A DNA stretch of 64,000 nt, from positions 1 through 64,000 of the forward strand of contig JAAZZQ010000060.1 in the NCBI GenBank assembly GCA_014239155.1, in the 5' to 3' direction. The position numbers were made by a program, and so were the translations under genes. Below are positions 9,628 to 36,738 of the stretch, piece after piece (position 1 is the first letter of the stretch; each line of letters starts with the position of its first letter). This stretch comes from Lachnospiraceae bacterium. GTDB lineage: Bacteria; Bacillota; Clostridia; Lachnospirales; Lachnospiraceae. The notes beneath the pieces were generated by a model. It ran no database searches and was not told the origin of the DNA. It was given only the letters and a program-made list of their open reading frames with translations.

Positions 9628-9657
9628 AAAACATATGTGGAAAAGAGGATGGAGACC

Positions 9658-10818: not shown

Positions 10819-10924
10819 AATAGATTTTATTTTTAATGTACAAACTGTATAAAAATTTCACCAATGGAAAAAATAGTATTATAAAAATTTGAATACGAAA
10901 AGCAACAGACAGAGGTGAAAGAAG

Positions 10925-11266
10925 ATGAAACGAGGAGATATTTATTATGCAGATTTAAGACCAGTGGTAGGCTCAGAACAGGGCGGAGTAAGGCCAGTTT
11001 TGATTATTCAGAATGATGTGGGAAACAAGCACAGTCCGACCGTGATTTGTGCTGCAATCACTTCCAAGATGAACAAAGCCAATTTACCTACACATATTGA
11101 ACTGAATGCGGGAAATTACGATATGGTGAAAGACTCCGTGATTTTGCTTGAGCAGTTAAGGACAATCGATAAAAAACGTCTGAAGGATAAGGTGTGTCAT
11201 CTGGATTCTCCAATTATGCAGAGAGTCAACAGAGCCTTACAAATCAGTCTTGAGCTTGATACATAA
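10925..11266 (+). CDS. mazF: MazF/NdoA-type endoribonuclease, no MazE beside it
   Basis: A 113-residue PemK/MazF toxin-family mRNA interferase. Family segments are visible: [13 protein letters not shown] at the N-terminus, the catalytic-arginine region [12 protein letters not shown], and the conserved threonine/serine strand [14 protein letters not shown]. It is closest to B. subtilis NdoA (EndoA), which cleaves single-stranded RNA at U^ACAU. In B. subtilis the antitoxin NdoAI lies between alr and ndoA. Here the 106-base gap holds only an 18-codon frame with no ribbon-helix-helix character. The ribosome site AGAGGTGAA lies before the start. The toxin may be checked by an unlinked antitoxin or used as a housekeeping RNase. 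Confidence 0.93.
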
Positions 11267-11278
11267 GGGCTTTGGATA

Positions 11279-11307
11279 TTGACGTTTTACAATAGTAATG
11301 ATATATT
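11279..11307 (+). promoter_or_regulatory. Promoter of the CNNM/CorC gene
   Basis: TTGACG at 11279-11284, a 17-base spacer, and TATATT at 11302-11307. Confidence 0.65.
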
Positions 11308-11309
11308 AG

Positions 11310-11345
11310 AAAGGTGTAGCCCACAAAATAGTGGTTTACACCTTT
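11310..11345 (+). terminator. Strong hairpin just downstream of the promoter
   Basis: AAAGGTGTA (11310-11318) pairs with TACACCTTT (11337-11345), extended by CCAC and GTGG around the loop AAAATA. Only three T residues end the right arm. It begins three bases after the -10 of the preceding promoter, so it would form at the very 5' end of that transcript. It could be the mazF terminator, an mRNA stabiliser or a regulatory leader. Confidence 0.55.
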
Positions 11346-11412
11346 GCTGTATGCACAAAAATCGGTGCAGAGGAAAGATAGAACAATTCCAAAGAATAAA
11401 GGAGAGGAAAAA

Positions 11413-12789
11413 ATGGATGATGGAGGGGCTTCGGCCTGTAGTATGATAGTATTTCTGTTACTGCTTTTTGTTGAGGCGATATTGACCGGATTTAACAAGG
11501 CCATTGGTCTTATGAATGAGAAAGAGATTGAGCGCAGAGCGGAGGAAGAGAAAGACAAAAAATCAATTTTGCTCAGCCGCATTATTGAGCGCGCTACAAT
11601 CTATGTCAATTCGATTCAAATGATCACAACGTTGATTGAGTTAGTGATGGGATACTTCTTTCTGTCAAGATGGGCAGAGGGACTCCGAAAGGTTTTTGGG
11701 AACATATCATTTTTTCGGGAGTTCAATGAAATTGTGTTGGATTGGATGGCACTAATAGTCGCGGCGGTCCTTCTAATGTATGTACTGTTGACATTCGGAA
11801 TTTTACTGCCCAAGAAGATTGCACAGAAATATCCAGATGCGTGGGCATATCGGTTTATTCGTCAAATACAATTTCTTAGAACAGTGCTTTATCCGCTGAC
11901 ATGGATTATTGCGATTTCTGCAAATGGTCTGCTGTGGATTTTCGGTCTGCGCAATACAGAGGAGCAGGCGGATGTCACAGAGGAGGAGATTATCTCAATG
12001 GTCAATGAGGGGCATGAGCTTGGCGTTCTCGAAGCAGGTGAAGTTGAGATGATTACAAATATCTTTGAATTTGGGGATAAGAAAGCAAATGATATTATGA
12101 CACACAGAAATAATATTATGGCACTTGATAGCACAACACCATTCAAAGATGCCCTTGGCTATATGCTGAAGGAGAGCAACAGCAGATATCCCGTTTTTGA
12201 GGAAAATTTGGATCATGTGATTGGGGTATTGTACTTGAAAGATGCAATGAGAATACATACTTTAAATGAAAGTTTAAATCAGCCTATTGGAATAGTGGAA
12301 GGGCTTTTAAGAGAGGCAGTGTTTGTGCCGGAAACCAAAAATATTGACGATCTTTTTCGGAGTATGCAGTCACAAAAGAATCAGATGGTGATTGTTATGG
12401 ATGAGTATGGGCAGACATCGGGACTTGTGACAATGGAGGATATTCTTGAAGAAATTGTGGGAAATATTATGGATGAGTATGACCCAGAGGAAAATCATAT
12501 TGAGAAAAAGGGCGAGAATGAATATATGATTGAAGGAATGATGCGGCTTGAGGACTTGGAGGAGCGATTTGGAATTTCTTTTGGTGATACAGAGTTTGAG
12601 ACACTCAATGGATACTTGATATCCAAGTTGGACCGGATTCCAGATGAAGATGAGAACTCGGAGCTTGAGATTGAGGGATATACTTTTAAGATTGTGAAGG
12701 TGGAAAAGAATGTGATACAATCGGTGCTTGTCACAAAGTCTCAAAAAATAGAGGCGCACAATGTTGTCAAAGAGAACACGGAGCAATAA
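11413..12789 (+). CDS. CNNM/CorC-family membrane protein with CBS pair
   Basis: A 458-residue hemolysin-C/CorC family protein. Hydrophobic segments at the N-terminus (for example around residues 8-24 and 95-120) form the DUF21/CNNM membrane domain. A CBS pair follows at about 210-335, with EVEMITNIFEFGDKKANDIM and the MVIVMDEYGQTSGLVTMEDILE stretch. A CorC_HlyC transporter-associated domain lies at about 350-440. The family is linked to magnesium or other divalent-cation export. The ATG at 11413 has AGGAGAGG six bases upstream; a longer TTG frame from 11344 adds a non-hydrophobic lead and is rejected. Confidence 0.92.
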   Translation: MDDGGASACSMIVFLLLLFVEAILTGFNKAIGLMNEKEIERRAEEEKDKKSILLSRIIERATIYVNSIQMITTLIELVMGYFFLSRWAEGLRKVFGNISFFREFNEIVLDWMALIVAAVLLMYVLLTFGILLPKKIAQKYPDAWAYRFIRQIQFLRTVLYPLTWIIAISANGLLWIFGLRNTEEQADVTEEEIISMVNEGHELGVLEAGEVEMITNIFEFGDKKANDIMTHRNNIMALDSTTPFKDALGYMLKESNSRYPVFEENLDHVIGVLYLKDAMRIHTLNESLNQPIGIVEGLLREAVFVPETKNIDDLFRSMQSQKNQMVIVMDEYGQTSGLVTMEDILEEIVGNIMDEYDPEENHIEKKGENEYMIEGMMRLEDLEERFGISFGDTEFETLNGYLISKLDRIPDEDENSELEIEGYTFKIVKVEKNVIQSVLVTKSQKIEAHNVVKENTEQ

Positions 12790-13624: not shown

Positions 13625-13643
13625 CGAGAGAATTATTTTAAAG

Positions 13644-14019: not shown

Positions 14020-14454
14020 ATGCAGAAGATGAGTATAAAAAATCACATTGCGCCATATATACACCATGCAAAATATTATGAGACAGATCAGATGGGGATT
14101 ATTCATCACTCCAATTATATTCGATGGATGGAGGAGGCCCGAATGGACGCCATGAGTCAATTTGGAATATCGTACAGCAATATGGAAAAAAATGGCATTA
14201 TCAGTCCAGTTGTCTCGGTATCTTGTGAATATAAAAGCATGGTGCATTTTGACGATATTGTGCAGATTCAAGTAAATGTCACAAAATATAATGGTGTGCG
14301 GCTAGACTTAGCATATAAGATAACAGACAATAGAACTGGGGAGCTGCGCACAAAAGGGACAAGCACACATTGTTTTCTGGATAAGGCAGGGCATGTTATT
14401 TCACTAAAACACGATTATCCTGAGATTGATGAGCGATTTCGACAGATGTTGTAA
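14020..14454 (+). CDS. Hotdog-fold acyl-CoA thioesterase (YbgC/FadM type)
   Basis: A 144-residue 4-hydroxybenzoyl-CoA-thioesterase-like protein. The catalytic segment YETDQMGIIHHSNYIRWMEEAR places the nucleophile/base D23 in the usual position, with H30 and Y33 following. The family hydrolyses short to medium acyl-CoA esters; the true substrate here cannot be read from sequence. GGGG lies six bases upstream of the first ATG; a second in-frame ATG is at codon 4. It is a monocistronic gene directly before the SWIM/MoxR/ClpA cluster and may not belong to it. Confidence 0.9.
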   Translation: MQKMSIKNHIAPYIHHAKYYETDQMGIIHHSNYIRWMEEARMDAMSQFGISYSNMEKNGIISPVVSVSCEYKSMVHFDDIVQIQVNVTKYNGVRLDLAYKITDNRTGELRTKGTSTHCFLDKAGHVISLKHDYPEIDERFRQML

Positions 14455-14523: not shown

Positions 14524-16002
14524 ATGAGAGAGATAAACGAACAGCAAATTTTAGCGCTGGCACCAAATGCAGCAGCGGCCTCAAATGGCAAAAAAATTTC
14601 ACAGAAAGGCGGATTTGTTAAGCTTGAGCGGTCACAAGACGATACATTTTATATGGGAGAGTGTACTGGCAGTGGCAAGAGCAATTACATTACATCGGCA
14701 GATTACATAGATGAGAACAATCCAGTTTATCGCTGTTCTTGTCCAAGCAGGCAGTTTCCTTGCAAGCACAGTTTAGCGCTAATGTATGAGATGCTTGCAA
14801 AAAAGGAATTTAGCATTTGTGAAGTCCCAGAGGATATTCAGAAAAAGCGCGAGAAGAAGCAGGCAAAGGAAAATAAGGCAAATGAGGCAGCAAAGCCAGA
14901 GAGCGAAATGACCGAGGAAGAAAAGAAGAAGGCGGAAAAGAAAAAGGCAACTGCTGCAAGAACTGCGAAAAATGCAAGGGTGAAAAAAATAAAGACGCAG
15001 CTTGAAGGGCTGGATTTGGTTGAGAAAGTTGTTATGGAACTGATGTCGGCGGGGCTAGGAACAATAGGAGGCGCTTCTATTAAGACCTATCAAGAACTTG
15101 CAAAGCAGATGGGCGATTATTATCTTCCAGGACCGCAGAGACTGTGCAGCCAGTTATTAATTGAGATTACAGAATTTCAGAAAGACCAAAAGGAATCTCA
15201 TTACGATGCGGCAATTAGCGTGTTGGAAAAGCTTTGGAGCTTAATTAAAAAGTCGCGTCAGTATCTAAATGAAAAAATTGAAAAGGATGATGTGACGCTG
15301 GAGGATACGGTTCTGTATGAGGAATTGGGCGGCATCTGGAAACTGTCAGAGTTGGAGGAGCTAGGAAAAAATAAAAAGGATGCAAGTCTAATGCAGCTCT
15401 CTTTCTGGGTGATTTACGATGAGGCGCGAAAAGAGTATGTTGACACTGGTTGCTGGGCAGATTTGGACACTGGCGAAATTTATATGAATTACAATTATCG
15501 TCCAATAAAATCATTAAAATACGTTAAACAGGAAGACAGCATTTTTGGTGTGGCAAAAGTACCAAGCGCAGTGTTTTATCCCGGTGATGGGAATGTCAGG
15601 GTTCGCTGGGAAAATGCTCAGATACGCGAATATGAACAGGCAGATTACGAGGCAATCTTTGAACATGCTGTTACTTCTGTCAAACAGGAGGCAAAGGCTG
15701 TCAAAAATTTCCTTAAAAATGCAATGACACAGCCTTGGATGATCAAGCTGATTTCCTTTCATAAGATTGGAAAAATTGGCGAGGATTTTGTGTTGGCAGA
15801 CAATAATAACGACACCATTCTTTTAGGAGATATGCCAAATATGGAGGAGACGGTTGTGCGACTTTCCATGTTGCCAAATGCTTCTTTGCTTGAAAATCAG
15901 GTACTTTTGGGCGCATTTTATTACAATCAGGAAAACCGCAGACTTATGGTGCAGCCGCTCAGTATTATCACACATGACACAGTGGTGCGATTGTTATATT
16001 AA
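14524..16002 (+). CDS. SWIM zinc-finger protein, first gene of the MoxR/VWA/N-degron cluster
   Basis: A 492-residue protein with a SWIM zinc finger, pattern CxC...CxH, at C71, C73, C80, H82 (YRCSCPSRQFPCKHSLALM). A strongly charged K/E/A-rich helix at about 100-150 probably forms a coiled coil or flexible spacer. The remaining ~340 residues are a mixed domain seen with SWIM fingers in MoxR/VWA-associated cassettes. SWIM fingers bind DNA or protein; here protein contact within a complex is plausible. A purine-rich AAAGGAATGAG site precedes the start. Next gene 139 bases downstream, same strand. The finger is clear; the function is unknown. Confidence 0.85.
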   Translation: MREINEQQILALAPNAAAASNGKKISQKGGFVKLERSQDDTFYMGECTGSGKSNYITSADYIDENNPVYRCSCPSRQFPCKHSLALMYEMLAKKEFSICEVPEDIQKKREKKQAKENKANEAAKPESEMTEEEKKKAEKKKATAARTAKNARVKKIKTQLEGLDLVEKVVMELMSAGLGTIGGASIKTYQELAKQMGDYYLPGPQRLCSQLLIEITEFQKDQKESHYDAAISVLEKLWSLIKKSRQYLNEKIEKDDVTLEDTVLYEELGGIWKLSELEELGKNKKDASLMQLSFWVIYDEARKEYVDTGCWADLDTGEIYMNYNYRPIKSLKYVKQEDSIFGVAKVPSAVFYPGDGNVRVRWENAQIREYEQADYEAIFEHAVTSVKQEAKAVKNFLKNAMTQPWMIKLISFHKIGKIGEDFVLADNNNDTILLGDMPNMEETVVRLSMLPNASLLENQVLLGAFYYNQENRRLMVQPLSIITHDTVVRLLY

Positions 16003-16141
16003 TTGGTAAAAAAGTCAAGAAGATTTTGACAAAGGTGTCTTAAAATGAGGCGCAGATTGGCGTAAAAAAATTCAGGTTTGCGGAAAGACAATTGTGGAAG
16101 CGGTTGTCTAAGGAATTGTAAAGAAAATAGGAGGGATAGAT

Positions 16142-18133
16142 ATGGATACAACACCGATTTATGAGCTGCGGGCACGCTTGCGCGCAGCAGGGATTGCAGG
16201 AACAAGTTTGCTTTCGGAGGATTTTCGATTAAAACGTGCCTATGAGGCATTTAAACCACTTGAGGCGGCTTCGCCTGTCTTTGCAAAATTGGGACAGTTG
16301 ACCACGCAGTTGTTAGCACCGGATTGCCCGAATTTGCAAGGGGCGCTGTTGGATACAATAACGCTTGCAGACGCTGTGATTTGCACATTGGGAACCGTGG
16401 ATATAAAAGGGGAAGTTGCAGCGCTTGATATTGTTGATACAGAGAGAAATACAGGCAGTATTATTGTCAATGCGCCATATTCTACATTAAAAGAGCTTTT
16501 GGAAGCGCTGACAACATCGGGAAGTGGTCATTATGCTTATGTGTGTGATGTGCGCGAAAACCGCCCAGAATTGTTTCGGGATTATCGCGTGAGATATGCT
16601 TTGGTGCAGGCGTTGGGCGCTCCTTATGCAGAGCTTGCAAAGGATATTAAGCAATGGATGAAAGAAGACCAAGATAAGACCTTACTGCCGCTTTTATACA
16701 AGGACTTTGACCCAAAAGGCAAGAAGGACATGGTGCGTCGCGTGACAGTAATTGATGCCATTGCGGGGGCAGAAGCAAATGATTTTTATCTTGAGATGCT
16801 TGCCAATGCACAGAAAGATGTTCGTCTGGCACTGCTCAATGCATTGCGCCATAATTTAGAAAATGTTACATTGCTTTTGGATTTGGTAAAGAAAGAGAAA
16901 GGGAAAAACAAAGAGAAAGTTTTGGAGTTACTCGCGGAAATGAACGACACTAGAGCATGTGACTTCTATCAAGAAATGATGAAGAAAAATCCACAAAATG
17001 CGTTGCAAAATTTGAAAAATACAACGACGGAGTGGTCAGCACAATTGGTTGCGAATTATTGTAATGAGATGCTGGAACAAATTGATTCGCTAAATATTAT
17101 GTCAGAAGAAAAAAAATTGGAAGTATCTGAGAGACTGCAAAAAGTAATTCGCGCATTGTTTGGAAAGGGAGGAACTGCAATCTGTGAATGTTATCGCAGC
17201 CTGCTTGCAAGAAAAGATAACATTAATTCTCTGTTGAAAGAAACATGGAAAGTTGACAAAAAAAATAATAACAATAATACGGATGTATTGCGATATGGAG
17301 TGCTTGAGACAATAGATGAATTTTCTACGATTTCATTTGCTGCAAATGTTAGAAGAATTGAAATTGCATTGGGAAAGATCTTGCATCATTCTTTAATTGT
17401 CAATCCAGATGTTGCATTACAGGAACTTGCATTGGAATTATATACAGCAAATGTAAAATTTGTTCCAGCAAATATAAAATTTCTTCCAGCCGCTATCACA
17501 GCAAAACTGATTCGGGAGGAAGCGTGTGCAGAGTGGCTTGCGGCGTTGATACCAAAGCAGTCCAAGGAGCATATGGTGGCAGTTCTTGAAGCGGCAGCCT
17601 ATATTAAATGGGATCAAAAACAGGGAGGCTATGAATTTGTTGGCAATTATATAGATACTTATGCAGACAGTTATGAGAGTGAGTATTACAATCCATTCAA
17701 AATGGTGGAAGTGCCTGTTGAACTGTCTCACGCAAAGGAAGTAATGGATTGGCTGAGACAGTATGAAACAAAAGCAGCGGATGACATTTTAGGAAATTGG
17801 GTAGTATTAAATGATAAAGAGCAATGTCAGGAGATGGGAGAGTATTTTTATAATAGGGCACTGGTTTCTCGGGACAATAACAATTGTATTTATTTTATGA
17901 ATGAGTGTGGTTGGACAGTTTGTAAGGGACTGGGAATCAAACATGCACAGAATAATCCAAATATTTCGTCATGGTCTTTGTACTATTGGCTAATAGATTT
18001 GTCAAAGGATAAAGACGCTGTGATGGAAGAGGCAAAAGCAATCTGCGATAAGGTAAAAAGCGGCGAACTTAAAATGAAGAATTTTAAGGAGCAAGACTTT
18101 GAAAGATATATGAACAACTGGTATGGAGGCTGA
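16142..18133 (+). CDS. HEAT-like repeat protein, paralogue 1
   Basis: A 663-residue mostly helical protein with no signal peptide or membrane segment. Repeated helical pairs such as ANDFYLEMLANAQKDVRLALLNALR resemble HEAT/armadillo repeats. The conserved block GTSLLSEDFRLKRAYEAF lies near residues 20-37, and PLLYKDFDPKGKKDMVRRV near 180-200. It is clearly paralogous to the next gene over its whole length. In SWIM/MoxR/DUF5682/VWA cassettes of other phyla this place is taken by a helical-repeat protein (DUF5691-type); equivalence is inferred. AGGAGGG precedes the ATG. A scaffold role is a guess from the repeat architecture. Confidence 0.85.
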   Translation: MDTTPIYELRARLRAAGIAGTSLLSEDFRLKRAYEAFKPLEAASPVFAKLGQLTTQLLAPDCPNLQGALLDTITLADAVICTLGTVDIKGEVAALDIVDTERNTGSIIVNAPYSTLKELLEALTTSGSGHYAYVCDVRENRPELFRDYRVRYALVQALGAPYAELAKDIKQWMKEDQDKTLLPLLYKDFDPKGKKDMVRRVTVIDAIAGAEANDFYLEMLANAQKDVRLALLNALRHNLENVTLLLDLVKKEKGKNKEKVLELLAEMNDTRACDFYQEMMKKNPQNALQNLKNTTTEWSAQLVANYCNEMLEQIDSLNIMSEEKKLEVSERLQKVIRALFGKGGTAICECYRSLLARKDNINSLLKETWKVDKKNNNNNTDVLRYGVLETIDEFSTISFAANVRRIEIALGKILHHSLIVNPDVALQELALELYTANVKFVPANIKFLPAAITAKLIREEACAEWLAALIPKQSKEHMVAVLEAAAYIKWDQKQGGYEFVGNYIDTYADSYESEYYNPFKMVEVPVELSHAKEVMDWLRQYETKAADDILGNWVVLNDKEQCQEMGEYFYNRALVSRDNNNCIYFMNECGWTVCKGLGIKHAQNNPNISSWSLYYWLIDLSKDKDAVMEEAKAICDKVKSGELKMKNFKEQDFERYMNNWYGG

Positions 18134-18158
18134 TAAAACCAGCAAAAGAGGTGATATA

Positions 18159-20114
18159 ATGGATATAACACCAATTTATGAGTTGCGGGCGCGTATGCGC
18201 GTGGCGGGTATCGCCGGAACAAGTCTGTTGTCGGAAGATTTTCGGTTGAAACGCGCTTATGAAGCGTTTCAACCACTGGAAGCGATTTCACCTATCTTTG
18301 AAAAATTAGGGCAGTTGACAGCACAGCTATTTTCGCCGGACTGTTCTAATTTGCAAGGTGCGCTTTTGGATGCTATCACATTGGCTGATGCTGTGATTTG
18401 TACGCTGGGAGCAGTAGACATACAAGGAGAAGTTGAATCGTTTGAGATCACAGAACTGGAAACAAGCACAGACAGCATTGTGGTGAGTGCACCATATTCT
18501 GTGTTAAAAAAGTTGCTTGATGCGCTGACAACATCAGATGGTGGACACTATAGATATGTGTGTGAACTGTATGAGCGTCACCCAGAATTTTTTCGGGACT
18601 ATCGTGTTAGATATACATTGGTTGGGGCATTGGGGACTACCTATATAGCGGACAAAGTGGAAGAGTGGCTAAGAGAAGATAATGATAAGACAATTTTACC
18701 GCTTTTATATAAAGATTTTGATCCAAAAGGGAAAAAGGAAATGGTGCGCCGTGTAAGGCTAATCAGTGCGCTTGCCGGTGCAGAGGCAAACGATTTTTAT
18801 ATTGAAATGTTAAAGGAAGCGCAAAAAGATGTGCGCACAGAACTCATTGATGCACTTCGTCATGCGCCTGAAAATCTGTCGTTGTTGCTTGCATTAGCAA
18901 AGACAGAAAAAGGAAAAAATAAAGATAAAGTTTTTGAGCTGCTTGTGGAGATTGAAGAAGAACGAGTCAGCCAATTTTTTCGGGAGTTGGCAGAGAAAAG
19001 GACAGATACGGTTCTAATGTATCTTAAAAATTCAATAACGGATTGGTCTGCAAAAATAGTAGCAGATGTTTGTAATACATTTTTGGAAGAGCTAAAAACG
19101 ATAGACAATGCTGATGACGAAGAAAAACAATATTTTTCAGAGAGACTGCAGCTTATGGTAAGGGCTTTTTTTGGCAAGGGCGGAGCTCAAATCTGTGAAT
19201 GTTATAAAAAACTTCTTATAAACAGCGAAAAAATAGATGCGCTTCTGAAAAAAACATGTAAAAAATCGCAGAATGTATATGAAAATACTGTATTGCAGTA
19301 TGGAGTGTTAAAATCTTATCAATGTTGGCACAAAACGAATTTGTGGGATATTCAGATGATATTGGGCAGAGTTTTACATCATTCTCTGCTTGTGAATCCA
19401 GATCCGGAATTGCAGTCGCTTGCGTTTGCGCTGTATCAAGATGAAAACTCCAAAAAGACAAATCTAAAATTTTTGCCAGCAGCGGTTACAGTGCAGTTTT
19501 CTAAGGATGAGAATTGCATCGAATGGCTTGAACAACAAGTGAAAGACACAGTCCTTATTGTGCCAAAGCTTTCCAAGGAACGTATGAATGTGGTTACGAA
19601 GGTAGCGGCATATATAAAATGGAACGCGACAGAAAACAGTTATGAATTTTTTGGATATTATATGGACACTCATTCGCTAGGACATAGAAGCGTTGCAAGA
19701 CCAATTAAGTTATCCCATGCAAAAGAGATTATAGAGTGGTTTCAGGAGCATTCTTCAAAGTTGGTTGATGAGATGTTGACGAATTGGGTTCCATTGAATG
19801 ATGCGTGTATGTGTAGTATGATGGGAGAATATTTTTATAAGAAGGCGCTGACGACTGGTGATAATATGTATCTGTCAAGTATGAAGGCGTGTGGCTGGAC
19901 TGTTTGTGAGGATCTTGCTGTACAGTATTGTAAGAGTAAAGAAAAACGAATTGAAGAGTGGGAATTGCAGCATTATTTGGAAGAAATGCCAGGGGACTTG
20001 GAGGCGAGACGCGCGGAGGCACAGAACCTTAAAGAACGGATAAAGACAGGGAAACTTCGTCCAAGAAAAATTGATTTTTCTAGTCTGGAAGCGTGGATTG
20101 AGAAAAATTTATAA
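18159..20114 (+). CDS. HEAT-like repeat protein, paralogue 2
   Basis: A 651-residue paralogue of the preceding protein. The first ~110 residues and the PLLYKDFDPKGKKEMVRRV block are nearly identical, while the middle (about 270-480) has diverged and carries different insertions. The ATG at 18159 has AGAGGTGA five bases upstream and aligns exactly with the start of paralogue 1; a frame from 18123 adds 12 unmatched residues. The gap to paralogue 1 is 25 bases. Retention of two intact diverged copies suggests a heteromeric scaffold or two client surfaces rather than a recent accidental duplication. Confidence 0.87.
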   Translation: MDITPIYELRARMRVAGIAGTSLLSEDFRLKRAYEAFQPLEAISPIFEKLGQLTAQLFSPDCSNLQGALLDAITLADAVICTLGAVDIQGEVESFEITELETSTDSIVVSAPYSVLKKLLDALTTSDGGHYRYVCELYERHPEFFRDYRVRYTLVGALGTTYIADKVEEWLREDNDKTILPLLYKDFDPKGKKEMVRRVRLISALAGAEANDFYIEMLKEAQKDVRTELIDALRHAPENLSLLLALAKTEKGKNKDKVFELLVEIEEERVSQFFRELAEKRTDTVLMYLKNSITDWSAKIVADVCNTFLEELKTIDNADDEEKQYFSERLQLMVRAFFGKGGAQICECYKKLLINSEKIDALLKKTCKKSQNVYENTVLQYGVLKSYQCWHKTNLWDIQMILGRVLHHSLLVNPDPELQSLAFALYQDENSKKTNLKFLPAAVTVQFSKDENCIEWLEQQVKDTVLIVPKLSKERMNVVTKVAAYIKWNATENSYEFFGYYMDTHSLGHRSVARPIKLSHAKEIIEWFQEHSSKLVDEMLTNWVPLNDACMCSMMGEYFYKKALTTGDNMYLSSMKACGWTVCEDLAVQYCKSKEKRIEEWELQHYLEEMPGDLEARRAEAQNLKERIKTGKLRPRKIDFSSLEAWIEKNL

Positions 20115-20148
20115 AAAGAAATTTATTTGAGAAAGGAAAGTATATAAA

Positions 20149-21234
20149 ATGAGTGAAGAATTATTGAGACTGCCAGCAGAACAGTTATTTCAGAAGGAAA
20201 TTGACGCATTGATTGCAGCGGAGAAAAATCCAGTTCCGACAGGTTGGCGGATGTCTCCGCAGTCAGTAAAGACTTATATCTGTGGCGGAAAGGTTGGAAA
20301 AACTGAGATTACACCAAAGTACATAGGGCATGAGCGCCTAGTGGAGATTGCAATTTCCACACTTGTCACAGACAGGGCGCTGTTGTTAATTGGTGAACCA
20401 GGTACAGCAAAGAGCTGGCTTTCTGAGCATTTGACGGCTGCCATTAACGGTGATTCTACAAAAGTAATTCAGGGAACAGCAGGAACCACAGAGGAGCAGA
20501 TTAAATATTCTTGGAATTATGCAATGTTGATTGCGCAGGGACCATCGCACGAGGCAATGCTTAAGAGTCCTGTTTTTAATGCAATGGAAACGGGAACGAT
20601 TGCGCGTGTTGAGGAAATTTCCCGTTGTGCCTCTGAGGTGCAAGATGCATTAATTTCGATTTTATCAGAAAAGAGAATCTCTGTTCCAGAACTTGCAATT
20701 GAAGTGGCAGCAAAAAAAGGTTTTTCTGTAATTGCAACAGCAAACACAAGGGATAAAGGCGTGAATGAAATGTCTGCTGCGCTAAAGCGCCGTTTTAATA
20801 TTGTTGTGCTTCCAGCGCCAGCAAATTTAAGTTCTGAGATGGAAATTGTCAGGACAAGAGTGACACAACTGTCGCAAAATCTTGATTTGAATGCAACCCA
20901 GCCCACAGACAATGTTATAGAGAAAGTATGTACAATATTCCGGGAACTTCGCTGCGGAGAAACACTTGACCGCGCGCAGAAGGTGAAAGGTACATCGGGC
21001 GTTCTCTCTACTGCGGAAGCAATTTCTTTGCTGTGCAACAGCATGGCGCTGGCAGGAAGTTTTGGAAATGGGACAATAACAAATGAGGATTTGGCAGCAG
21101 CGCTGCAAGGTGCGGTGATTAAAGACGAGGACAAAGACAAGGTAGCGTGGAAAGAATATTTGGAAAATGTTATGAAAAAACGCGGTTCGGAGTGGTCAGG
21201 GCTGTATCGGGCGTGCAAGGAACTGACAGTTTAG
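20149..21234 (+). CDS. MoxR-type AAA+ ATPase
   Basis: A 361-residue single-domain AAA+ protein of the MoxR/AAA_5-like group. Walker A GEPGTAKS lies at 82-89 with K88. The Walker B strand reads TIARVEEIS with E155-E156, so the usual aspartate is replaced by glutamate. Sensor-1 region IATANT is at 195-200, followed by LKRRFN with R214-R215 as candidate arginine fingers. MoxR ATPases act as chaperones with VWA-domain partners, inserting cofactors or remodelling complexes. The VWA protein is two genes downstream. GAAAGGAAAG precedes the start; it lies 34 bases after paralogue 2. Confidence 0.93.
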   Translation: MSEELLRLPAEQLFQKEIDALIAAEKNPVPTGWRMSPQSVKTYICGGKVGKTEITPKYIGHERLVEIAISTLVTDRALLLIGEPGTAKSWLSEHLTAAINGDSTKVIQGTAGTTEEQIKYSWNYAMLIAQGPSHEAMLKSPVFNAMETGTIARVEEISRCASEVQDALISILSEKRISVPELAIEVAAKKGFSVIATANTRDKGVNEMSAALKRRFNIVVLPAPANLSSEMEIVRTRVTQLSQNLDLNATQPTDNVIEKVCTIFRELRCGETLDRAQKVKGTSGVLSTAEAISLLCNSMALAGSFGNGTITNEDLAAALQGAVIKDEDKDKVAWKEYLENVMKKRGSEWSGLYRACKELTV

Positions 21235-21264
21235 TACCAGTTTAGGAAGGTAAGGAAGAGATAG

Positions 21265-23514
21265 ATGAAAAATCCAAATTTTTTCGGAATACGGCATTTA
21301 TCGCCTGCCGGTGCGTATTATCTGCGCGGGTTTCTTGACGAGAAGAAACCAAAGCTAGTGCTGGTTGAAGGGCCAAGCGATTTTGAGGATATGCTGTCTG
21401 ATATGGTACGCAAGGAGACAAAACCGCCAATTGCGGTACTTGCATACACAAAGGAAGCACCCGTGAAAACCATATTGTATCCGTTTGCAGAATATTCGCC
21501 AGAATATCAAGCAATACAGTGGTGCCACAAAAATCACGTGCCATGTCATTTTATTGATTTGCCATCGGAAACTTTTCTGGCAATACCAGAGTGTGGTATG
21601 CAAGATGCAGAAGGGGAAGAGGGTAGAATCAATGTCTATGAACAGCTTGACCAGCAGAGCGGCGAGGATAGCCATGATACATTTTGGGAGCGTGTTATGG
21701 AGCGGTCTGGCAGCATTGAAGCCTATCATTTGGGAGCAAACAGTTTTGGTGCCAACATTAGAAGCCTTACGGAAGGAAAAGATAATGATTGGGCGGAGAC
21801 CGTACTTCGTGAGGCATATATGCGCCAGCAGATTAAAAAATCTGTAGATTCTGGCATTGACCCGGAAAACATTGTTGTGGTGACAGGTTCCTATCATGTA
21901 GAAGGGCTAAAAAATTGGCAAGAAGCTGATGAAGACTTATCAAAGATGCCCAAGGTGGGGGCAAATCATACATTAATGCCATATTCGTATTACCGTCTTT
22001 CCACAAGATCCGGCTATGGTGCTGGAAACAAAGCGCCTGCATACTATGCGCTTTTGTGGGAGGGTTTAAAGAAAGGTGAACCAATGTATGCGGTTTACAG
22101 CTATCTGATAAAGCTTGCAAAATATCAGCGCGAAAAAGGAAATCCCATTTCGTCTGCCTCAGTGATTGAGGCGGTGTGTCTGGCAATGTCTTTGGCACAG
22201 CTTAGGGGTGGAACGATTGCCTCCCTTAGAGATTTGCGCGATGCAGCGCAGACCTGTATTGGTGAGGGGAGCGTGTCAAGCATTATTCATGCGACGGCTG
22301 ACACAGAGATTGGAACAGCGATTGGGGCGCTTCCTGACGGTGTGAGTCGCACCAGTATTCAAGAAGACTTTTACAGACAGCTAAAAGATTTAAAACTGGA
22401 AAAATACCGTGATATTGCTGCGCAAGATTTAATGCTGGATTTGCGGGAAAATAGACGTGTCAGCTCAGAAAAATCAGCGTTTATTGATTTGCATCGCTCT
22501 TTTTTCCTGCATCGACTTAGAGTGATTCATGTAAGTTTTGCTCAGCAGCAGTCTGTTAGTCAGGACAATGCAACGTGGTCAGAACACTGGGTTGTGCGGT
22601 GGACACCAGAGGCGGAGATAGAGCTGGTGGAATCTGCGTTAAAGGGTGATACCATCGATGGGGCGGCGTCTTTTGCCATGAAGGAACGTGTGGAAAATGC
22701 CGCAAATATGGGAGAGATTGCGCTTGTTATAGAAGATGCTTGCAGTTGTGGTATGGAAAAAGCAGTTGGCTATGCGACCGCAGCGCTACAAAGAATGGCG
22801 GTGGATGCAGCGTCGGTGGAGGATTTGGCAAAGACAGCGCAGAGACTTTCCGTGGTGGTGCAGTATGGCAATATCCGGCGCATTGACGCCAAACCGTTAG
22901 AGCCAATATTAAAGCAGCTATTTTATAGGGCATGTCTAATATTGGAGTCTGCCTGCGTGTGCGATGATACAGCAAGCAAGTCAATTCTCGCTGCGATGGA
23001 ACAGTTAAACAGTGTGGAGTTAGCACATGATTTTCTGGATCATGACGAGTGGATTAAAGTGCTGGATAGTATTTCAGAACGCGACGATTTGAATACCAAA
23101 TTGTCGGGATTTGCAGCGGCAATTTTGCTAGAGCGCGGCAATATGAGTACACAGCAGTTGCGCACAGAGGTGTCAAGACGCCTCTCAAAAGGAATCCCTG
23201 CGGACTTGGGGGCAGGGTGGTTTGAAGGGCTTGCCATGAAAAATAGATATGCACTCATTGCAAGGTTGTCTCTATGGGAGAGTTTAAACGATTATCTTGT
23301 CACACTAGATGATGAGGAGTTTAAGCGAGCACTTGTCTTTTTGCGGCGTGCTTTTGCAGACTTTTCTGCGGCGGAAAAAGACCAGATTGCAGAGAACCTA
23401 GGAGAGATATTAGGGTTGAATGGTCAGGAGGTCAGCGAGATTGTAAATGCTGTGCTTGACGAGAATGCACAGCAGATGATTGAAGGACTGGATGATTTTG
23501 ATTTTGACCTTTAA
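21265..23514 (+). CDS. DUF5682 family protein, possible TIKI/EreA-ChaN-like hydrolase
   Basis: A 749-residue protein matching the DUF5682 group that accompanies MoxR/VWA pairs. The N-terminal ~220 residues show a pattern like the TIKI/TraB/EreA-ChaN superfamily: GIRHLSPAG (R10, H11), LVLVEGPSD (E35), the REAYM element (R182-E183, M186), and VVTGSYHVEGL (H211). In that superfamily such H and E residues bind metal and act on peptides or esters. The rest (about 230-749) is helical with no motif I know. The start has GGAAG upstream, 30 bases after the MoxR stop. DUF5682 assignment is fairly sure; the hydrolase idea is inference. Confidence 0.85.
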   Translation: MKNPNFFGIRHLSPAGAYYLRGFLDEKKPKLVLVEGPSDFEDMLSDMVRKETKPPIAVLAYTKEAPVKTILYPFAEYSPEYQAIQWCHKNHVPCHFIDLPSETFLAIPECGMQDAEGEEGRINVYEQLDQQSGEDSHDTFWERVMERSGSIEAYHLGANSFGANIRSLTEGKDNDWAETVLREAYMRQQIKKSVDSGIDPENIVVVTGSYHVEGLKNWQEADEDLSKMPKVGANHTLMPYSYYRLSTRSGYGAGNKAPAYYALLWEGLKKGEPMYAVYSYLIKLAKYQREKGNPISSASVIEAVCLAMSLAQLRGGTIASLRDLRDAAQTCIGEGSVSSIIHATADTEIGTAIGALPDGVSRTSIQEDFYRQLKDLKLEKYRDIAAQDLMLDLRENRRVSSEKSAFIDLHRSFFLHRLRVIHVSFAQQQSVSQDNATWSEHWVVRWTPEAEIELVESALKGDTIDGAASFAMKERVENAANMGEIALVIEDACSCGMEKAVGYATAALQRMAVDAASVEDLAKTAQRLSVVVQYGNIRRIDAKPLEPILKQLFYRACLILESACVCDDTASKSILAAMEQLNSVELAHDFLDHDEWIKVLDSISERDDLNTKLSGFAAAILLERGNMSTQQLRTEVSRRLSKGIPADLGAGWFEGLAMKNRYALIARLSLWESLNDYLVTLDDEEFKRALVFLRRAFADFSAAEKDQIAENLGEILGLNGQEVSEIVNAVLDENAQQMIEGLDDFDFDL

Positions 23515-23537
23515 TCCTTTTAATATGGAGGTTCAAT

Positions 23538-24719
23538 ATGGAAGTAAAAGAACAAATTAGTCGTTGGCGTTTAATTTTGGGACAGGAGAGTGATAAGCGT
23601 CTGTCAACAATGACAGACTTGACGCTGACGCAAGAGCAGGATTTGATGGACCAGGCGCTTGCTTCTATCTATAATCGGACAGAGCTTGGAGGATTTGGTG
23701 GGTCAGGCGGTTCAGGCAGAGGTGCAGGAAAGGGACCATCAAATCCACAGATTAGCCGCTGGCTTGGCGATGTGCGGACACTGTTTGACAAGGAATTAGT
23801 GACTGTTATCCAAAATGATGCGGTGACGCGCTGCGGTCTAAAACAGTTGTTATTTGAGCCAGAGCTATTGGAAAATATGGAGCCAGACATTGGGCTTGCC
23901 TCCACAATTTTAATGTTAAAAGATCAGATTCCAAAGCGCTCGAAGGAGAGTGTTCGAGAGTTTATTAAAAAGATTGTAGAGGAAATAAATAAGTTGCTTG
24001 AGCAGGATATTCGGCGTGCTATCACTGCTGCGGTCAATAAGAGAAAGCACTCACCTATTCCATCTGCGTCGGCAATGGATTTTAAAATGACAATCAATCG
24101 CAATTTAAAACATTATAATCCTGATTTAAAGACAATTGTGCCTGAACATTTTTATTTCTTTGACCGGACAAGTACAACGGCAGCAAATAAATGGACCATT
24201 ATACTAGATATTGACCAGAGTGGATCAATGGGGGAATCTGTTATTTATTCCTCAATTATCAGTTGTATTTTGGCAAGCATGGCAAGTATTAAGACACGAA
24301 TTGTTGCATTTGATACAAATATTGTGGACTTGACAGAAAAAAGTGATGATCCAGTTGATTTGTTGTTTGGGTTTCAGCTTGGAGGTGGTACGGATATTAA
24401 CAAATCAATCGCTTACTGTGAGCAGTTTATTGAAAATCCGGCAAAGACATTATTTTTCTTAATTTCTGATTTGGATGAGTTTGGAAATCGTGCAGGAATG
24501 CTTAGACGCATTAGCGACATGAAGGAATCCGGCGTGACAGTTGTCAGCCTGCTTGCAATTGCCGATGGCGGAAGACCTTACTATGATGCGCAGATGGCAC
24601 AGAAGCTTGCAGGGCTTGGAGTTCCATGCTTTGCCTGTACCCCTGAGCTTTTGCCGGCATTGCTTGAGAAGGCGCTAAAAGGACAGGATTTGTCTCAGTT
24701 TGGGAAAAAAGCAAAGTGA
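23538..24719 (+). CDS. VWA-domain protein, MoxR partner
   Basis: A 393-residue protein with a C-terminal von Willebrand A domain (about 215-385). The MIDAS metal site is complete: D226-x-S228-x-S230 in DIDQSGSMG, T285 in GGGTD, and D311 in ISDLDE. A glycine-rich linker at 51-67 joins an N-terminal helical segment to a helical middle (about 70-170). VWA proteins with an intact MIDAS typically deliver substrates to MoxR ATPases. GGAGG lies nine bases before the ATG. It is 23 bases after the DUF5682 gene and 25 bases before clpS. Confidence 0.93.
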   Translation: MEVKEQISRWRLILGQESDKRLSTMTDLTLTQEQDLMDQALASIYNRTELGGFGGSGGSGRGAGKGPSNPQISRWLGDVRTLFDKELVTVIQNDAVTRCGLKQLLFEPELLENMEPDIGLASTILMLKDQIPKRSKESVREFIKKIVEEINKLLEQDIRRAITAAVNKRKHSPIPSASAMDFKMTINRNLKHYNPDLKTIVPEHFYFFDRTSTTAANKWTIILDIDQSGSMGESVIYSSIISCILASMASIKTRIVAFDTNIVDLTEKSDDPVDLLFGFQLGGGTDINKSIAYCEQFIENPAKTLFFLISDLDEFGNRAGMLRRISDMKESGVTVVSLLAIADGGRPYYDAQMAQKLAGLGVPCFACTPELLPALLEKALKGQDLSQFGKKAK

Positions 24720-24744
24720 TGAACGATTAAAGAGGGAATACAAA

Positions 24745-25038
24745 ATGGCAATACAAGGAGAAACAAGGCAAAATACACGTATCAAAATACGAGAGCCAAA
24801 ACAATATAAAGTGATTATGCACAATGATGATTTTACCACAATGGATTTTGTGGTGGATATTCTGCGAGAGTTTTTTCATAAAAATGAAATAGAAGCCGAA
24901 CGACTGATGTTGTTGGTGCATGAGACGGGGAAAGCCGTTGTGGGGACATATCCCTATGATATTGCTGTCTCAAAGGTACAATCTGCGTCGGCAAGGGCGC
25001 GGGAAGAAGGATTTCCATTTCGTATGACAATTGAGTAA
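24745..25038 (+). CDS. clpS: ClpS N-degron adaptor
   Basis: A 97-residue ClpS. Relative to the E. coli numbering every N-degron pocket residue is present at a constant offset of seven: N27, D28, D29, T31, M33, V36, M55, V58 and H59, corresponding to N34, D35, D36, T38, M40, V43, M62, V65 and H66. It should therefore bind proteins with N-terminal Leu, Phe, Tyr or Trp and hand them to the ClpA N-domain. The disordered N-terminal ~17 residues needed for delivery are also present. The ATG at 24745 has GAGGG eight bases upstream; an ATG at 24700 lies inside the VWA gene and lacks a site. ClpS is uncommon in Firmicutes. Confidence 0.96.
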   Translation: MAIQGETRQNTRIKIREPKQYKVIMHNDDFTTMDFVVDILREFFHKNEIEAERLMLLVHETGKAVVGTYPYDIAVSKVQSASARAREEGFPFRMTIE

Positions 25039-25055
25039 TATATGGAGGAAGAAAG

Positions 25056-27383
25056 ATGCAGGTATCAAGAGAGGTGGCAGAAATCATCAATTTGGTAGTT
25101 GTTATGGCAAGAGAACGGCATTATGAGCTTGTGACACCAGAGTTGCTCTTGTTTGTGCTTTGTGGCAATCAAATATTTGCGGAGGCATTTGAGGATTGTG
25201 GTGGTGATGTTGCAGAGCTTTCAGACCAATTGGAGGGATATTTTAATCAATATTTGTTGGATGGCAATTCGGCGGATTCCTTTGCGCAAGACTCTGAATC
25301 AAACCCAGAGTTTTCAGCGGGAATGGCAAGTTTGTTGTCTTATGCAAGGCAATCAGCACAGGGAAGCGGGCGGAAAGTTGTGGGATTAATGCATATTGTC
25401 CATGCAATGTTTGAGTTGGAGGAGAGCTATGCAGTCTACTATATGCAACTTCAAGGAATTGAACATGCGGAACTGTTGCAACAGATGACAATGTTGTATG
25501 AAGAACTGTCTGCGGGGAGACAAAAGAACAATCGAGAGTTTATTGAGGAAGATACAAATCAAGCACAGGAGGATGGACCATCAGAGAAAGTATGGCAGCA
25601 GTTTGCGGTTTGTCTAAATGATGTGCTTGATGGGGTGAATCCCCTGATTGGAAGGGAAGAAGAACTAGAGCGCACAATGCAGATTTTATGCCGCAAGGAC
25701 AAAAACAATCCGCTTCATATAGGGGAGCCAGGCGTTGGAAAGACTGCAATTACGTATGCTCTTGCCCGTTTGATTGAGGAAGAACAAGTTCCAGAACCGT
25801 TAAAAGACGCCAAAATTTTTTCGCTTGATCTTGGAAGCCTAATTGCAGGAACACAGTTTCGCGGTGATTTTGAGAAGCGATTTAAGCGGGTGATGGACAG
25901 CATTTGCCGCGAGGAAAAACCAATTGTCTATATTGATGAGATTCATAATATTGTGGGTGCTGGCGCTGTGAATGGAGGTGCATTTGACATTTCCAATATG
26001 CTAAAACCATATCTGGCAGCGGGAACAGTTCGTTTTATTGGGGCAACTACTTACGAAGAGTACAAGAAACATTTTGAGAAAAGTAAAAGTCTGGTAAGAC
26101 GTTTTCAGAATATTGATATTAAAGAGCCGGATATAGAAGATGCCACACATATTTTGGAGGGATTGAAAGAGAGTTATGAGCAGTTTCATGGGGTGACTTA
26201 CGCGACAGATGTGATTGCATATGCGGTGAATATGAGTGCGAAATATGTGAATGAGCGTTATTTGCCTGACAAGGCGATTGATTTGATTGACGAAGCGGGT
26301 GCTTACCGTCGGCTGCATCCGCTAAAACAGAAGACGCAATCAGTGGACACAGATTTAATTGATGAAATTTTGTCAAAAACTTGTCAAATTCCAAAGCAAG
26401 TTGTAGAGCAAGATGAAATTGAGACACTTGCAACGCTAGAAACACGGCTGGCAAGTCGTGTGTTTGGACAGAATGAAGCGATTGCGCAGGTGGTCAACGC
26501 TGTTAAATTTTCAAGGGCAGGGCTTCTTGAGGAAGGAAAACCGCTGGCGAGTTTATTGTTTGTAGGACCTACAGGTGTTGGTAAGACAGAGATTGCAAGA
26601 AGTTTGGCAGAGGAACTTGGCGTTCGTTTGATTCGCTTTGATATGAGTGAGTACGAGGAAAAACATGCGGTTGCAAAGCTGATTGGTTCTCCGGCTGGAT
26701 ATGTGGGCTACGAAGAGGGTGGACTTTTGACAGAGGAGATTCGCAAACATCCACATGCGGTACTGTTGTTGGATGAGATTGAAAAAGCGCACCCTGACAT
26801 CTATAATATTCTTTTGCAGGTAATGGATTATGCGACGCTCACAGACAATCAAGGCAGAAAGGCGGATTTTCGCAATGTAATTGTAATTATGACTTCCAAC
26901 GCAGGTGCAAGTCGAGTTGGAAAACATGGTATTGGTTTTACAGGACAGGATGTTAAGTCAGATGTGATTTTAGAGGAAGTAAAGCGCATTTTTCAACCAG
27001 AGTTTCGCAATCGTCTGAACAAAATTGTTGTTTTTCATGGCATGGATAATAAGATGGCAGCGCAGATTACAGAGAAAAAACTTGGAGAGCTGCAAAAAAT
27101 GTTGCTCTTGAAAAAAGTGGAGCTTTCTGTTGATACAGAGGCAAAAACTCTTTTGAAAAAGAAGGGCATTACGACAGAATTTGGTGCGCGGGAGATTGAC
27201 CGTGTGATTCAAAGTGAAGTGAAACCACTCCTAGTAGATGAAATCTTGTTTGGAAAACTAAAAAAAGGTGGTAAATGTAAACTGACAGTGACAGAGAATC
27301 ATTTTGCGTTGGAATATTCACAGGAAAAAACAAAGAATCCTAGAAAAAACATGAAAAGAAAAGTGCTTGCAGATACAGAATAA
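25056..27383 (+). CDS. clpA: ClpA-type AAA+ unfoldase
   Basis: A 775-residue Hsp100 protein. A Clp N-domain (about 1-145) would dock ClpS. AAA module 1 has GEPGVGKT at 223-230 and YIDE with D294-E295. AAA module 2 has GPTGVGKT at 504-511 and LLDE with D573-E574. The ClpP-docking loop carries IGF at 626-628, so it should work with a ClpP peptidase encoded elsewhere. The coiled-coil M-domain of ClpC/ClpB and the zinc finger of ClpE/ClpX are missing, so it is ClpA-like and not the ClpC usual for Firmicutes. GGAGGAAG precedes the ATG, 17 bases after clpS. Confidence 0.95.
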   Translation: MQVSREVAEIINLVVVMARERHYELVTPELLLFVLCGNQIFAEAFEDCGGDVAELSDQLEGYFNQYLLDGNSADSFAQDSESNPEFSAGMASLLSYARQSAQGSGRKVVGLMHIVHAMFELEESYAVYYMQLQGIEHAELLQQMTMLYEELSAGRQKNNREFIEEDTNQAQEDGPSEKVWQQFAVCLNDVLDGVNPLIGREEELERTMQILCRKDKNNPLHIGEPGVGKTAITYALARLIEEEQVPEPLKDAKIFSLDLGSLIAGTQFRGDFEKRFKRVMDSICREEKPIVYIDEIHNIVGAGAVNGGAFDISNMLKPYLAAGTVRFIGATTYEEYKKHFEKSKSLVRRFQNIDIKEPDIEDATHILEGLKESYEQFHGVTYATDVIAYAVNMSAKYVNERYLPDKAIDLIDEAGAYRRLHPLKQKTQSVDTDLIDEILSKTCQIPKQVVEQDEIETLATLETRLASRVFGQNEAIAQVVNAVKFSRAGLLEEGKPLASLLFVGPTGVGKTEIARSLAEELGVRLIRFDMSEYEEKHAVAKLIGSPAGYVGYEEGGLLTEEIRKHPHAVLLLDEIEKAHPDIYNILLQVMDYATLTDNQGRKADFRNVIVIMTSNAGASRVGKHGIGFTGQDVKSDVILEEVKRIFQPEFRNRLNKIVVFHGMDNKMAAQITEKKLGELQKMLLLKKVELSVDTEAKTLLKKKGITTEFGAREIDRVIQSEVKPLLVDEILFGKLKKGGKCKLTVTENHFALEYSQEKTKNPRKNMKRKVLADTE

Positions 27384-27425
27384 AAGAAAGGTAACTTTTA
27401 GAATCACAACAGAGGGGGAGGGCAT

Positions 27426-28079
27426 ATGCCAGTATTTCGTATTGATAAAAAACAATTATCATTTCCACACCCAACGCTTGCAAGGGAGGATGGACTGCTT
27501 GCAGTCGGCGGAGATTTGTGTGTCGAGCGACTTTTGCTAGCCTACACAAATGGCATTTTTCCGTGGTATAACCCAGGAGAAGAAATTTTATGGTGGTGTC
27601 CCAAAAAACGTTTTGTGATATTTCCCAGTGAAATTCATATCTCGCACTCTATGAAAAAATATATGAAAAAACATACGTTTCGTATTGCGTTAAATAAAAA
27701 TTTTGCGGATACAATGCACCGATGTCGCTTAAAGAGAGAATTTAATGAGGGAACGTGGATTTCTGATGAGATGGAGGAGGCATATTGCCGCCTGCATGAG
27801 CAAGGGTATGCTGTCAGTGTGGAAGTTTTTGAGGATGAGGAGCTAGCAGGTGGCTTTTATGGTGTTTCTATTGGAAAATGTTTTTTTGGTGAGAGTATGT
27901 TTTCTGAGAAGGAAAATGGCTCGAAAACTGCGCTGATTGCCTTTGCACAACTTTTGGAGCAACAAAATTTTTTGTTTATTGACTGCCAATTTCACACAGA
28001 ACATCTTGAGCGTATGGGCGGCAGATATATTTCGTGGGAAACGTATGTGGAATTATTGCAGAAAGGGTTACAGAGATAA
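27426..28079 (+). CDS. aat: Leucyl/phenylalanyl-tRNA-protein transferase
   Basis: A 217-residue Aat of normal length. Hallmarks are GLLAVGGDLCVERLLLAY, GIFPWYNPGEEILWWCP, the EGTWISDEMEEAY stretch, and GKCFFGESMFSEKENGSK. Aat transfers Leu or Phe from aminoacyl-tRNA to proteins with N-terminal Lys or Arg, creating primary N-degrons that ClpS reads. It lies 42 bases after clpA on the same strand, behind GAGGGGGAGG, so the three enzymes of the bacterial N-end rule pathway are adjacent. The pathway is characteristic of Proteobacteria, which makes its presence here notable. Confidence 0.96.
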   Translation: MPVFRIDKKQLSFPHPTLAREDGLLAVGGDLCVERLLLAYTNGIFPWYNPGEEILWWCPKKRFVIFPSEIHISHSMKKYMKKHTFRIALNKNFADTMHRCRLKREFNEGTWISDEMEEAYCRLHEQGYAVSVEVFEDEELAGGFYGVSIGKCFFGESMFSEKENGSKTALIAFAQLLEQQNFLFIDCQFHTEHLERMGGRYISWETYVELLQKGLQR

Positions 28080-28197
28080 CTTTTCGCTTTATCTTTTTTT
28101 CATATATTTTATAAATACTTTGGTGGCAACCTGTTTTTGGGAATGATAGAATAAAGGTAACTTATTAATGAGGAAGAGGAAAACAGGAGGAAAAAGA

Positions 28198-28716
28198 ATG
28201 GATTTTTTTGATAGGACTACCAAAGTAGTAAGAGAAATTGGAAATGCGACGCGGGAGCAGACAGAGCTTGCAAATCTCAAGATTCAGAAGGCGGCAATTG
28301 AGAAGAAACTAGAAAGTCAATATGCAGAGATTGGCAAGCGATATGTCGCTTATATTGCAGATACGTTTCGGACAGAACCATTTGATGTGACAGATATTCT
28401 TGATGTAATCAATCCTGATTTGGACAAGATTGCTGAGATTATGGATCAGGTGGAACAGAAAGAACAACAGTTTAGACAGCATTCTATTGAGAAGGATAGA
28501 AAAAAGGCGCTAGAGCAGTTTGAAAGTGAAAAGCGCAAGTTGGATAAGGCAAGAGATTTGGATATTATTTCTGAGTTGGAATATGATGAGAAGCTGGCGA
28601 AGGCACGTAAAAGATATGACAATTTTGAGATGTTAAAAAAGATTCAGATGCAGTTTGAGATGGACATTATCACTAGAGAAGAGTACGAGGAGAAGGTTCG
28701 GAATATTTTACAGTAA
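28198..28716 (+). CDS. Coiled-coil protein of unknown function
   Basis: A 172-residue cytosolic protein, almost entirely helical and charged, with a long coiled coil from about residue 10 to 145. It ends in a short domain containing the segment RDLDIISELEYDEKLAKARKRY followed by TREEYEEKVRNIL. The two I(S/T)xxEYxEK motifs look like short SHOCT-type helices, an uncertain resemblance. AGGAGG lies seven bases before ATG 28198; an earlier frame start at 28168 has no site. The gene ends at a very strong terminator. It is probably not part of the clp-aat unit, since a 118-base gap precedes it. Confidence 0.82.
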   Translation: MDFFDRTTKVVREIGNATREQTELANLKIQKAAIEKKLESQYAEIGKRYVAYIADTFRTEPFDVTDILDVINPDLDKIAEIMDQVEQKEQQFRQHSIEKDRKKALEQFESEKRKLDKARDLDIISELEYDEKLAKARKRYDNFEMLKKIQMQFEMDIITREEYEEKVRNILQ

Positions 28717-36737: not shown

Positions 36738-36738
36738 T

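Follow-up and report, generated by a model that had tools for sequence, protein, structure and literature searches.

Seven named subfamilies of MoxR proteins, YehL being one of them, are distinguished in PMC3893208. The E. coli yehL-yehM-yehP-yehQ cluster encodes a MoxR ATPase, a DUF5682 protein, a VWA protein and a SWIM protein (YehQ). No HEAT-like gene is annotated between them, and in strain K-12 the cluster lies 1.28 Mb from clpS. On a plasmid of Deinococcus taeanensis the order SWIM-DUF5691-AAA-DUF5682-VWA is annotated throughout, with a small hypothetical gene before the DUF5682 gene. The same SWIM-to-VWA order occurs on plasmids of Rhizobium sp. Kim5, Methylosinus trichosporium OB3b and Hymenobacter radiodurans, where four of the genes are named and the fifth was located by tblastn; the VWA gene is in pieces in the Methylosinus cluster and the DUF5682 gene in the Hymenobacter cluster. 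ClpS, ClpA and Aat were all absent from the fetched 18-kb stretches of these four plasmid clusters. The literature searched contained no mention of DUF5682, of DUF5691, or of 'SWIM zinc finger' together with MoxR. The degradation genes described below belong to the same three families as E. coli clpS-clpA and aat. There, about 1.2 kb separates clpA from aat, which is on the opposite strand beyond serW and infA, and no MoxR cassette is nearby. YehL-type cassettes occur in several phyla and are little understood, and a natural operon that ties one of them to a well-understood degradation pathway would offer a concrete entry to their function.

In the window, i.e. the entire stretch of 64,000 nucleotides that was analyzed, both sets of genes stand in one block. 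Nine open reading frames were confirmed on the + strand from 14524 to 28079, in the order SWIM, HEATa, HEATb, MoxR, DUF5682, VWA, ClpS, ClpA and Aat. The block begins with a SWIM zinc-finger protein of 492 aa (14524..16002; PF04434 at 23.6 bits, above the cut-off of 19.6), followed by the HEAT-like repeat proteins a (663 aa, 16142..18133), which has no Pfam match of its own, and b (651 aa, 18159..20114), two paralogues that are 52% identical to each other. Next come a YehL-like MoxR AAA+ ATPase of 361 aa (20149..21234; AAA_5, E 1e-37), a DUF5682 protein of the YehM family with 749 aa (21265..23514; PF18934, E 1e-148) and a YehP-like, CoxE-like VWA protein of 393 aa with a MIDAS (23538..24719; PF05762, VWA_CoxE, E 1e-42). 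The degradation part comprises a ClpS adaptor of 97 aa (24745..25038; PF02617, E 3e-32), a ClpA unfoldase of 775 aa (25056..27383) and Aat, a leucyl/phenylalanyl-tRNA-protein transferase of 217 aa (27426..28079; PF03588, Leu_Phe_trans, E 2e-71). Within the cassette part, the intergenic gaps measure 139 (SWIM-HEATa), 25 (HEATa-HEATb), 34 (HEATb-MoxR), 30 (MoxR-DUF5682) and 23 bases (DUF5682-VWA). They are followed by gaps of 25 (VWA-ClpS), 17 (ClpS-ClpA) and 42 bases (ClpA-Aat), the first of which depends on reading the ClpS start as the ATG at 24745. The first-pass annotation had described nine same-strand genes of these identities over this span, separated mostly by 15-45 bases, with 139 bases after the SWIM gene and 42 bases between clpA and aat. 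Open reading frame coordinates and family scans agree with it, with measured gaps of 17-42 bases plus the one of 139. A terminator scan returned 15 sites, where shuffled sequence would give 10.8. Its strongest stem lies at 13640, 5' of the block, and stems within the block have only 5-7 pairs. Just 5' of the block is a 4HBT thioesterase-like gene (14020..14454, +; Pfam 4HBT_2, E 1e-16). The next gene 3' of aat, here and usually elsewhere, encodes a short protein that matches SHOCT weakly and below the cut-off (28168..28716, +; E 0.0081). Further along the window, positions 36001-38000 show an AT skew of 0.375, far above that of the remainder.

Judged by homology and gene order, the six-gene SWIM-to-VWA part is a cassette of known kind. 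The MoxR protein is 38% identical to E. coli YehL over 362 aligned positions (E 1e-80), the DUF5682 protein 26% identical to YehM (E 1e-39) and the VWA protein 34% identical to YehP (E 3e-73), and these three genes stand in the same order in E. coli. The VWA MIDAS, reported as intact, is so in the alignment, its DxSxS agreeing with the E. coli sequence. The SWIM gene is last in the E. coli cluster, whereas it is first here, and YehQ was not aligned with the SWIM protein of the window by blastp. The order of the Deinococcus plasmid matches that of the window, except that in the four plasmid clusters DUF5691 stands where the HEAT-like genes stand here. It had been proposed that MoxR/VWA cassettes with SWIM and DUF5682 proteins exist in other phyla, and the E. 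coli, Deinococcus, Rhizobium, Methylosinus and Hymenobacter clusters bear this out. The label 'HEAT' itself derives from a single sub-cut-off match of protein b (HEAT_2, E 0.0015). Since the HEAT-like proteins occupy the position of DUF5691, they were considered as its homologues. This was unsupported, as comparison of their profile with four DUF5691 proteins by hhalign gave no detectable homology (E 0.43, no better than controls). A profile search with the repeat protein against solved structures likewise returned nothing (best E 0.23).

Further cassettes were sought in phage and plasmid collections. In the plasmid search, 25 of 36 matching records were listed, and eight of these plus one E. 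coli record were opened. Among the matches listed, the closest DUF5682 protein (49%) is that of Fusobacterium vincentii NZ_CP084075.1, which carries SWIM-HEAT-MoxR-DUF5682-VWA; the record is termed a plasmid, and its length of 2.1 Mb suggests a chromosome. PHROG matches of the DUF5682 and VWA proteins prompted the idea of a phage origin, which was dropped because the only match in the phage collection is an unverified 14-kb scaffold. This 'Bacteriophage sp.' record (MT835988.1) holds MoxR-DUF5682-VWA among open reading frames that look bacterial by eye and is probably mislabelled. A second, YehLMPQ-like cassette is present in the genome of the window itself (contig C41, 308000-327999; 6764-15723 of the fetched stretch L092). 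It encodes MoxR, DUF5682, an ADP-ribosylglycohydrolase, VWA and SWIM proteins, with no ClpS nearby.

The MoxR-vWA ternary conflict systems described in PMC7159879 share a MoxR ATPase and a VWA partner with the block. SWIM does not occur in that article, and its single mention of ClpS concerns an L12/ClpS-like domain insertion rather than an adaptor gene. No VMAP, beta-propeller or effector domain was matched in the nine proteins by Pfam and PADLOC scans. The bpMoxR model covered only 54 residues of the MoxR protein (29 bits vs a cut-off of 27), and ClpA was the sole match of the PADLOC scan, through its AAA domains. The locus was therefore rejected as a system of this type.

The degradation part is complete. 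The NDD and VH stretches of ClpS, the residues that bind the N-degron, are identical to those of E. coli in the alignment, and the protein, queried without its first residue, matches solved ClpS structures. All NCBIfam ClpS models match as well, each under its own cut-off. A search of the genome found a single ClpS, that of the block. ClpA and Aat align with their E. coli counterparts over most of their length. For ClpA the best NCBIfam match is TIGR02639, with 979 bits slightly below the cut-off of 993; Aat exceeds the cut-off of TIGR00667 (193.1 vs 143.55) and matches a solved structure at E 1e-56. Elsewhere in the genome there are four matches of the ClpP family, two of them with E below 1e-70. 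The tag-writer, the reader and the unfoldase announced by the first-pass annotation are thus all encoded, a ClpP partner is present, and N-degron-dependent degradation is predicted for this organism. This documents ClpS, ClpA and Aat as a set in Lachnospiraceae; most of the relatives searched (75 of 98) show no Aat match.

The distribution of the arrangement was followed by censuses of DUF5682, ClpS and Aat in 98 relatives, the window genome included. DUF5682 proteins with E below 1e-130 were counted as cassette class, and a weaker second class reached about 1e-101 at best. One Lachnospiraceae genus is represented by 38 genomes, 18 of which have cassette-class DUF5682. The VWA gene leads into clpS on the same contig in 16 of them (joined genomes hereafter), directly in 13 and with one gene between in three, so that the linkage goes beyond an accident of one genome. 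Of the remaining two, G012 has its ClpS on a different contig, and in G019 ClpS was not found. The VWA-ClpS gap measures 6-107 bases in 13 joined genomes and 1986 bases in G002, G005 and G013, where the intervening gene encodes a same-strand DUF6020 protein (10544-12451 of stretch L114 in G013). Two of these three genomes have ClpS-ClpA gaps of 196 and 246 bases. In G018, G003 and G015 the sequence between VWA and clpS folds into stems of -35, -21 and -17 kcal/mol, respectively; a run of five T occurs only in G003, at the start of the stem. The insertion, the wide ClpS-ClpA gaps and these stems speak against a common transcript. All joined genomes except one (15 of 16) yielded Aat, which in G002, G034 and G037 lies on another contig beside a contig end; the miss (G008) is a 66% complete genome whose contig ends inside clpA. 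The thioesterase gene adjoins the SWIM or a HEAT-like gene in all 10 other joined genomes whose contig extends that far. Among the 12 that allowed a check at the other end, 11 have the SHOCT-like gene after aat, G031 being the exception. As the aat-SHOCT gaps span 88-728 bases (nine measured), the latter gene is possibly a separate transcript. Beyond the thioesterase gene, YebC and CBS genes were found in only two of nine checked joined genomes (G016 and G022). Of the seven genomes in which they were missed, six extend for 11 kb or more on that side and G013 for only 1.8 kb. The outer flanks have mostly changed while the inner block was kept, which indicates that the block is retained as its surroundings change.

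As joined genomes are by definition those with the join, the clade was delimited by an outside marker, citrate synthase. Sixteen genomes have a citrate synthase at least 91% identical, and 15 of these are joined; the remaining one, G007, is without DUF5682, ClpS and Aat, and in none of the 16 do cassette and ClpS stand apart. G008 is joined and, having no citrate synthase match, falls outside the marker set. In a ClpA tree, in which G002 is represented by its second contig and the G037 row fills 40% of the columns, a branch (93/99) separates the 15 joined rows from all others, G012 included; G034 is in neither this tree nor that of DUF5682. The arrangement is real, inherited and restricted to one clade, and its confinement to one genus points to one evolutionary event.

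The proteins of the cassette have diverged at different rates within this clade. MoxR is 93-100% identical to the window protein in the other joined genomes (85% in G034, over a 40-residue end piece), whereas identities of the HEAT-like proteins are mostly 38-59% in joined genomes outside G016 and G022. Joined species carry from one to at least four HEAT-like copies, which diverge far faster than the remaining cassette. Such fast divergence would fit a role in client recognition.

The reading that we prefer, with a probability of roughly 0.6, is that two known modules were joined once in the ancestor of a gut Lachnospiraceae clade and have been kept since, probably as one transcription unit, the likely coupling between them being one of shared expression. 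In the first module, a YehL-type remodelling cassette, the fast-changing HEAT-like and SWIM proteins would select a client for the ring of MoxR and its VWA partner to pull at or remodel, and DUF5682 would act on the selected client, perhaps as a metal-dependent hydrolase. In the second, Aat would add Leu or Phe to N-termini, ClpS would read them, and ClpA with ClpP would unfold and degrade the protein. Any benefit would lie in producing the two modules together, with no obligatory hand-over between them. Alternatively, the modules may have become neighbors by a chance rearrangement and not yet have separated, shared regulation being irrelevant. That a single event in one genus accounts for the join and that the modules are apart elsewhere agree with this alternative, as do the tolerated insertion between VWA and clpS in three genomes and the G012 group, in which a related cassette lies apart from clpS. 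However, the upstream flanks differ from those of the window in seven of nine checked joined genomes and yet the block is kept, the two parts are never separated where both occur within the citrate synthase clade, and in 13 of 16 joined genomes the VWA-ClpS gap does not reach 110 bases. We therefore consider mere neighborhood a possible but doubtful explanation.

The separability of the two modules, as preferred here, is supported by genomes in which cassette and clpS are apart. Cassette-class DUF5682 is unlinked to ClpS in 13 genomes (G012, G019, G053, G083, G164, G238, G463, L135, L139, L141, L142, L146 and L147). ClpS was not detectable in nine of them, including G019, G164, G238 and G463, and is located elsewhere in the other four; in total, nine of the 29 genomes with cassette-class DUF5682 have no detectable ClpS. 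G164, G238 and G463 are 99-100% complete, and their cassette is known from DUF5682 alone. The six genomes with L numbers are MAGs of unstated completeness that were searched for ClpS only. Seven L genomes were searched for ClpS, one of which (L136) is G012 again, and five were without it; several of the ClpS-less genomes, being MAGs, may be incomplete. A class-wide census of 391 genomes, conducted for DUF5682 only, gave six matches, four of them over the cut-off and one of these the window genome. The three new matches of this census, together with G053, G083, G050 and G078, were then searched for ClpS and Aat (seven genomes). No ClpS stood beside the cassettes outside the joined set in the fetched stretches. 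Conversely, G004, G010 and G028 possess clpS-clpA-aat without any DUF5682 match. In five of six related genomes inspected (G004, G010, G012, G028 and G032, not G027) clpS follows the same neighbors, a YitT/NUDIX/acyltransferase group and an unassigned gene, and this locus differs from the joined block. Outside the joined clade the two parts are thus at unrelated loci, an outcome that the first-pass annotation had named as a sign of accidental linkage.

In a DUF5682 tree, which includes a partial sequence from G019, the cassettes of G012, L135, L139 and L147 nest among the joined rows (98/98). Holding the joined rows together was rejected by the AU test (p 0.0125), run without the three long-branch rows (G083, G053 and Fusobacterium) and with the group fixed beforehand from synteny. 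Most simply, the cassette would have moved out of the joined block, in the line of G012 at least; loss of clpS-clpA-aat is an alternative for L135, L139 and L147.

These distributions bear on a stronger proposal, namely an obligate relay in which the cassette exposes or cuts its clients, the new N-termini are tagged by Aat or read directly by ClpS, and ClpAP degrades the product. Its appeal lies in the tight clade-wide linkage of cassette and clpS, in the joint presence of ClpS, ClpA, Aat and ClpP, in the DUF5682 motifs described below and in G007, which is without DUF5682, ClpS and Aat together. Against it stand the nine cassette genomes without detectable ClpS, the distant clpS of E. coli K-12, ten further phage- and plasmid-collection records with no ClpS, ClpA or Aat near the cassette in the fetched stretch, the three genomes with clpS-clpA-aat and no DUF5682 match, and a TIKI link under the Pfam cut-off. 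The persistence of the cassette does not need a pathway shared with the N-degron genes. Because the cassette also lives without ClpS, ClpA and Aat, a dedicated shared pathway is unsupported, and the single functional pathway first envisaged appears unlikely.

The hydrolase role given to DUF5682 in either scheme was examined through residue conservation. Across 17 aligned DUF5682 proteins, a diverse set that includes YehM and the second class, R10, H11, E35, G36, P37, R182, E183, M186, G208 and H211 are invariant and make up the motifs RH, EGP, RE..M and G..H. This layout resembles that of TraB/TIKI-type enzymes, whose family features are GxxH, E and a late GxxH. There was no significant TIKI, TraB or ChaN match for the window protein, the ChaN model reaching 17.1 bits, under the Pfam cut-off of 27.7. 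This model matched 10 of 17 aligned close relatives, the window protein included, at E up to 1 (best 1.8e-4), and did not match YehM, the second-class paralogue B or the G083 protein. In hhalign comparisons of the DUF5682 profile with five TraB-family proteins the last motifs were in register (p 0.042), vs p 0.13-0.55 for six controls, which were single sequences rather than alignments. An unrelated pair, the HEAT-like profile and citrate synthase, gave p 0.054, close to the TraB value. A profile search against solved structures found nothing (best E 1). The motifs suggest a TIKI-type hydrolase role as a lead. The boldest scheme built on it, a self-contained cut-tag-degrade operon in which DUF5682 would be a TIKI-type metallohydrolase that is loaded by MoxR/VWA and cuts clients to give N-termini for tagging by Aat and degradation by ClpS-ClpAP, is highly improbable.

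Outside the genus, clpS of G083, a member of another family, comes immediately after the genes of an alanine racemase and MazF (8-1740 of stretch L166). The same racemase/MazF pair is also present in the window at 9637-11266, 13-15 kb 5' of clpS, and this may hint at an older clp neighborhood.
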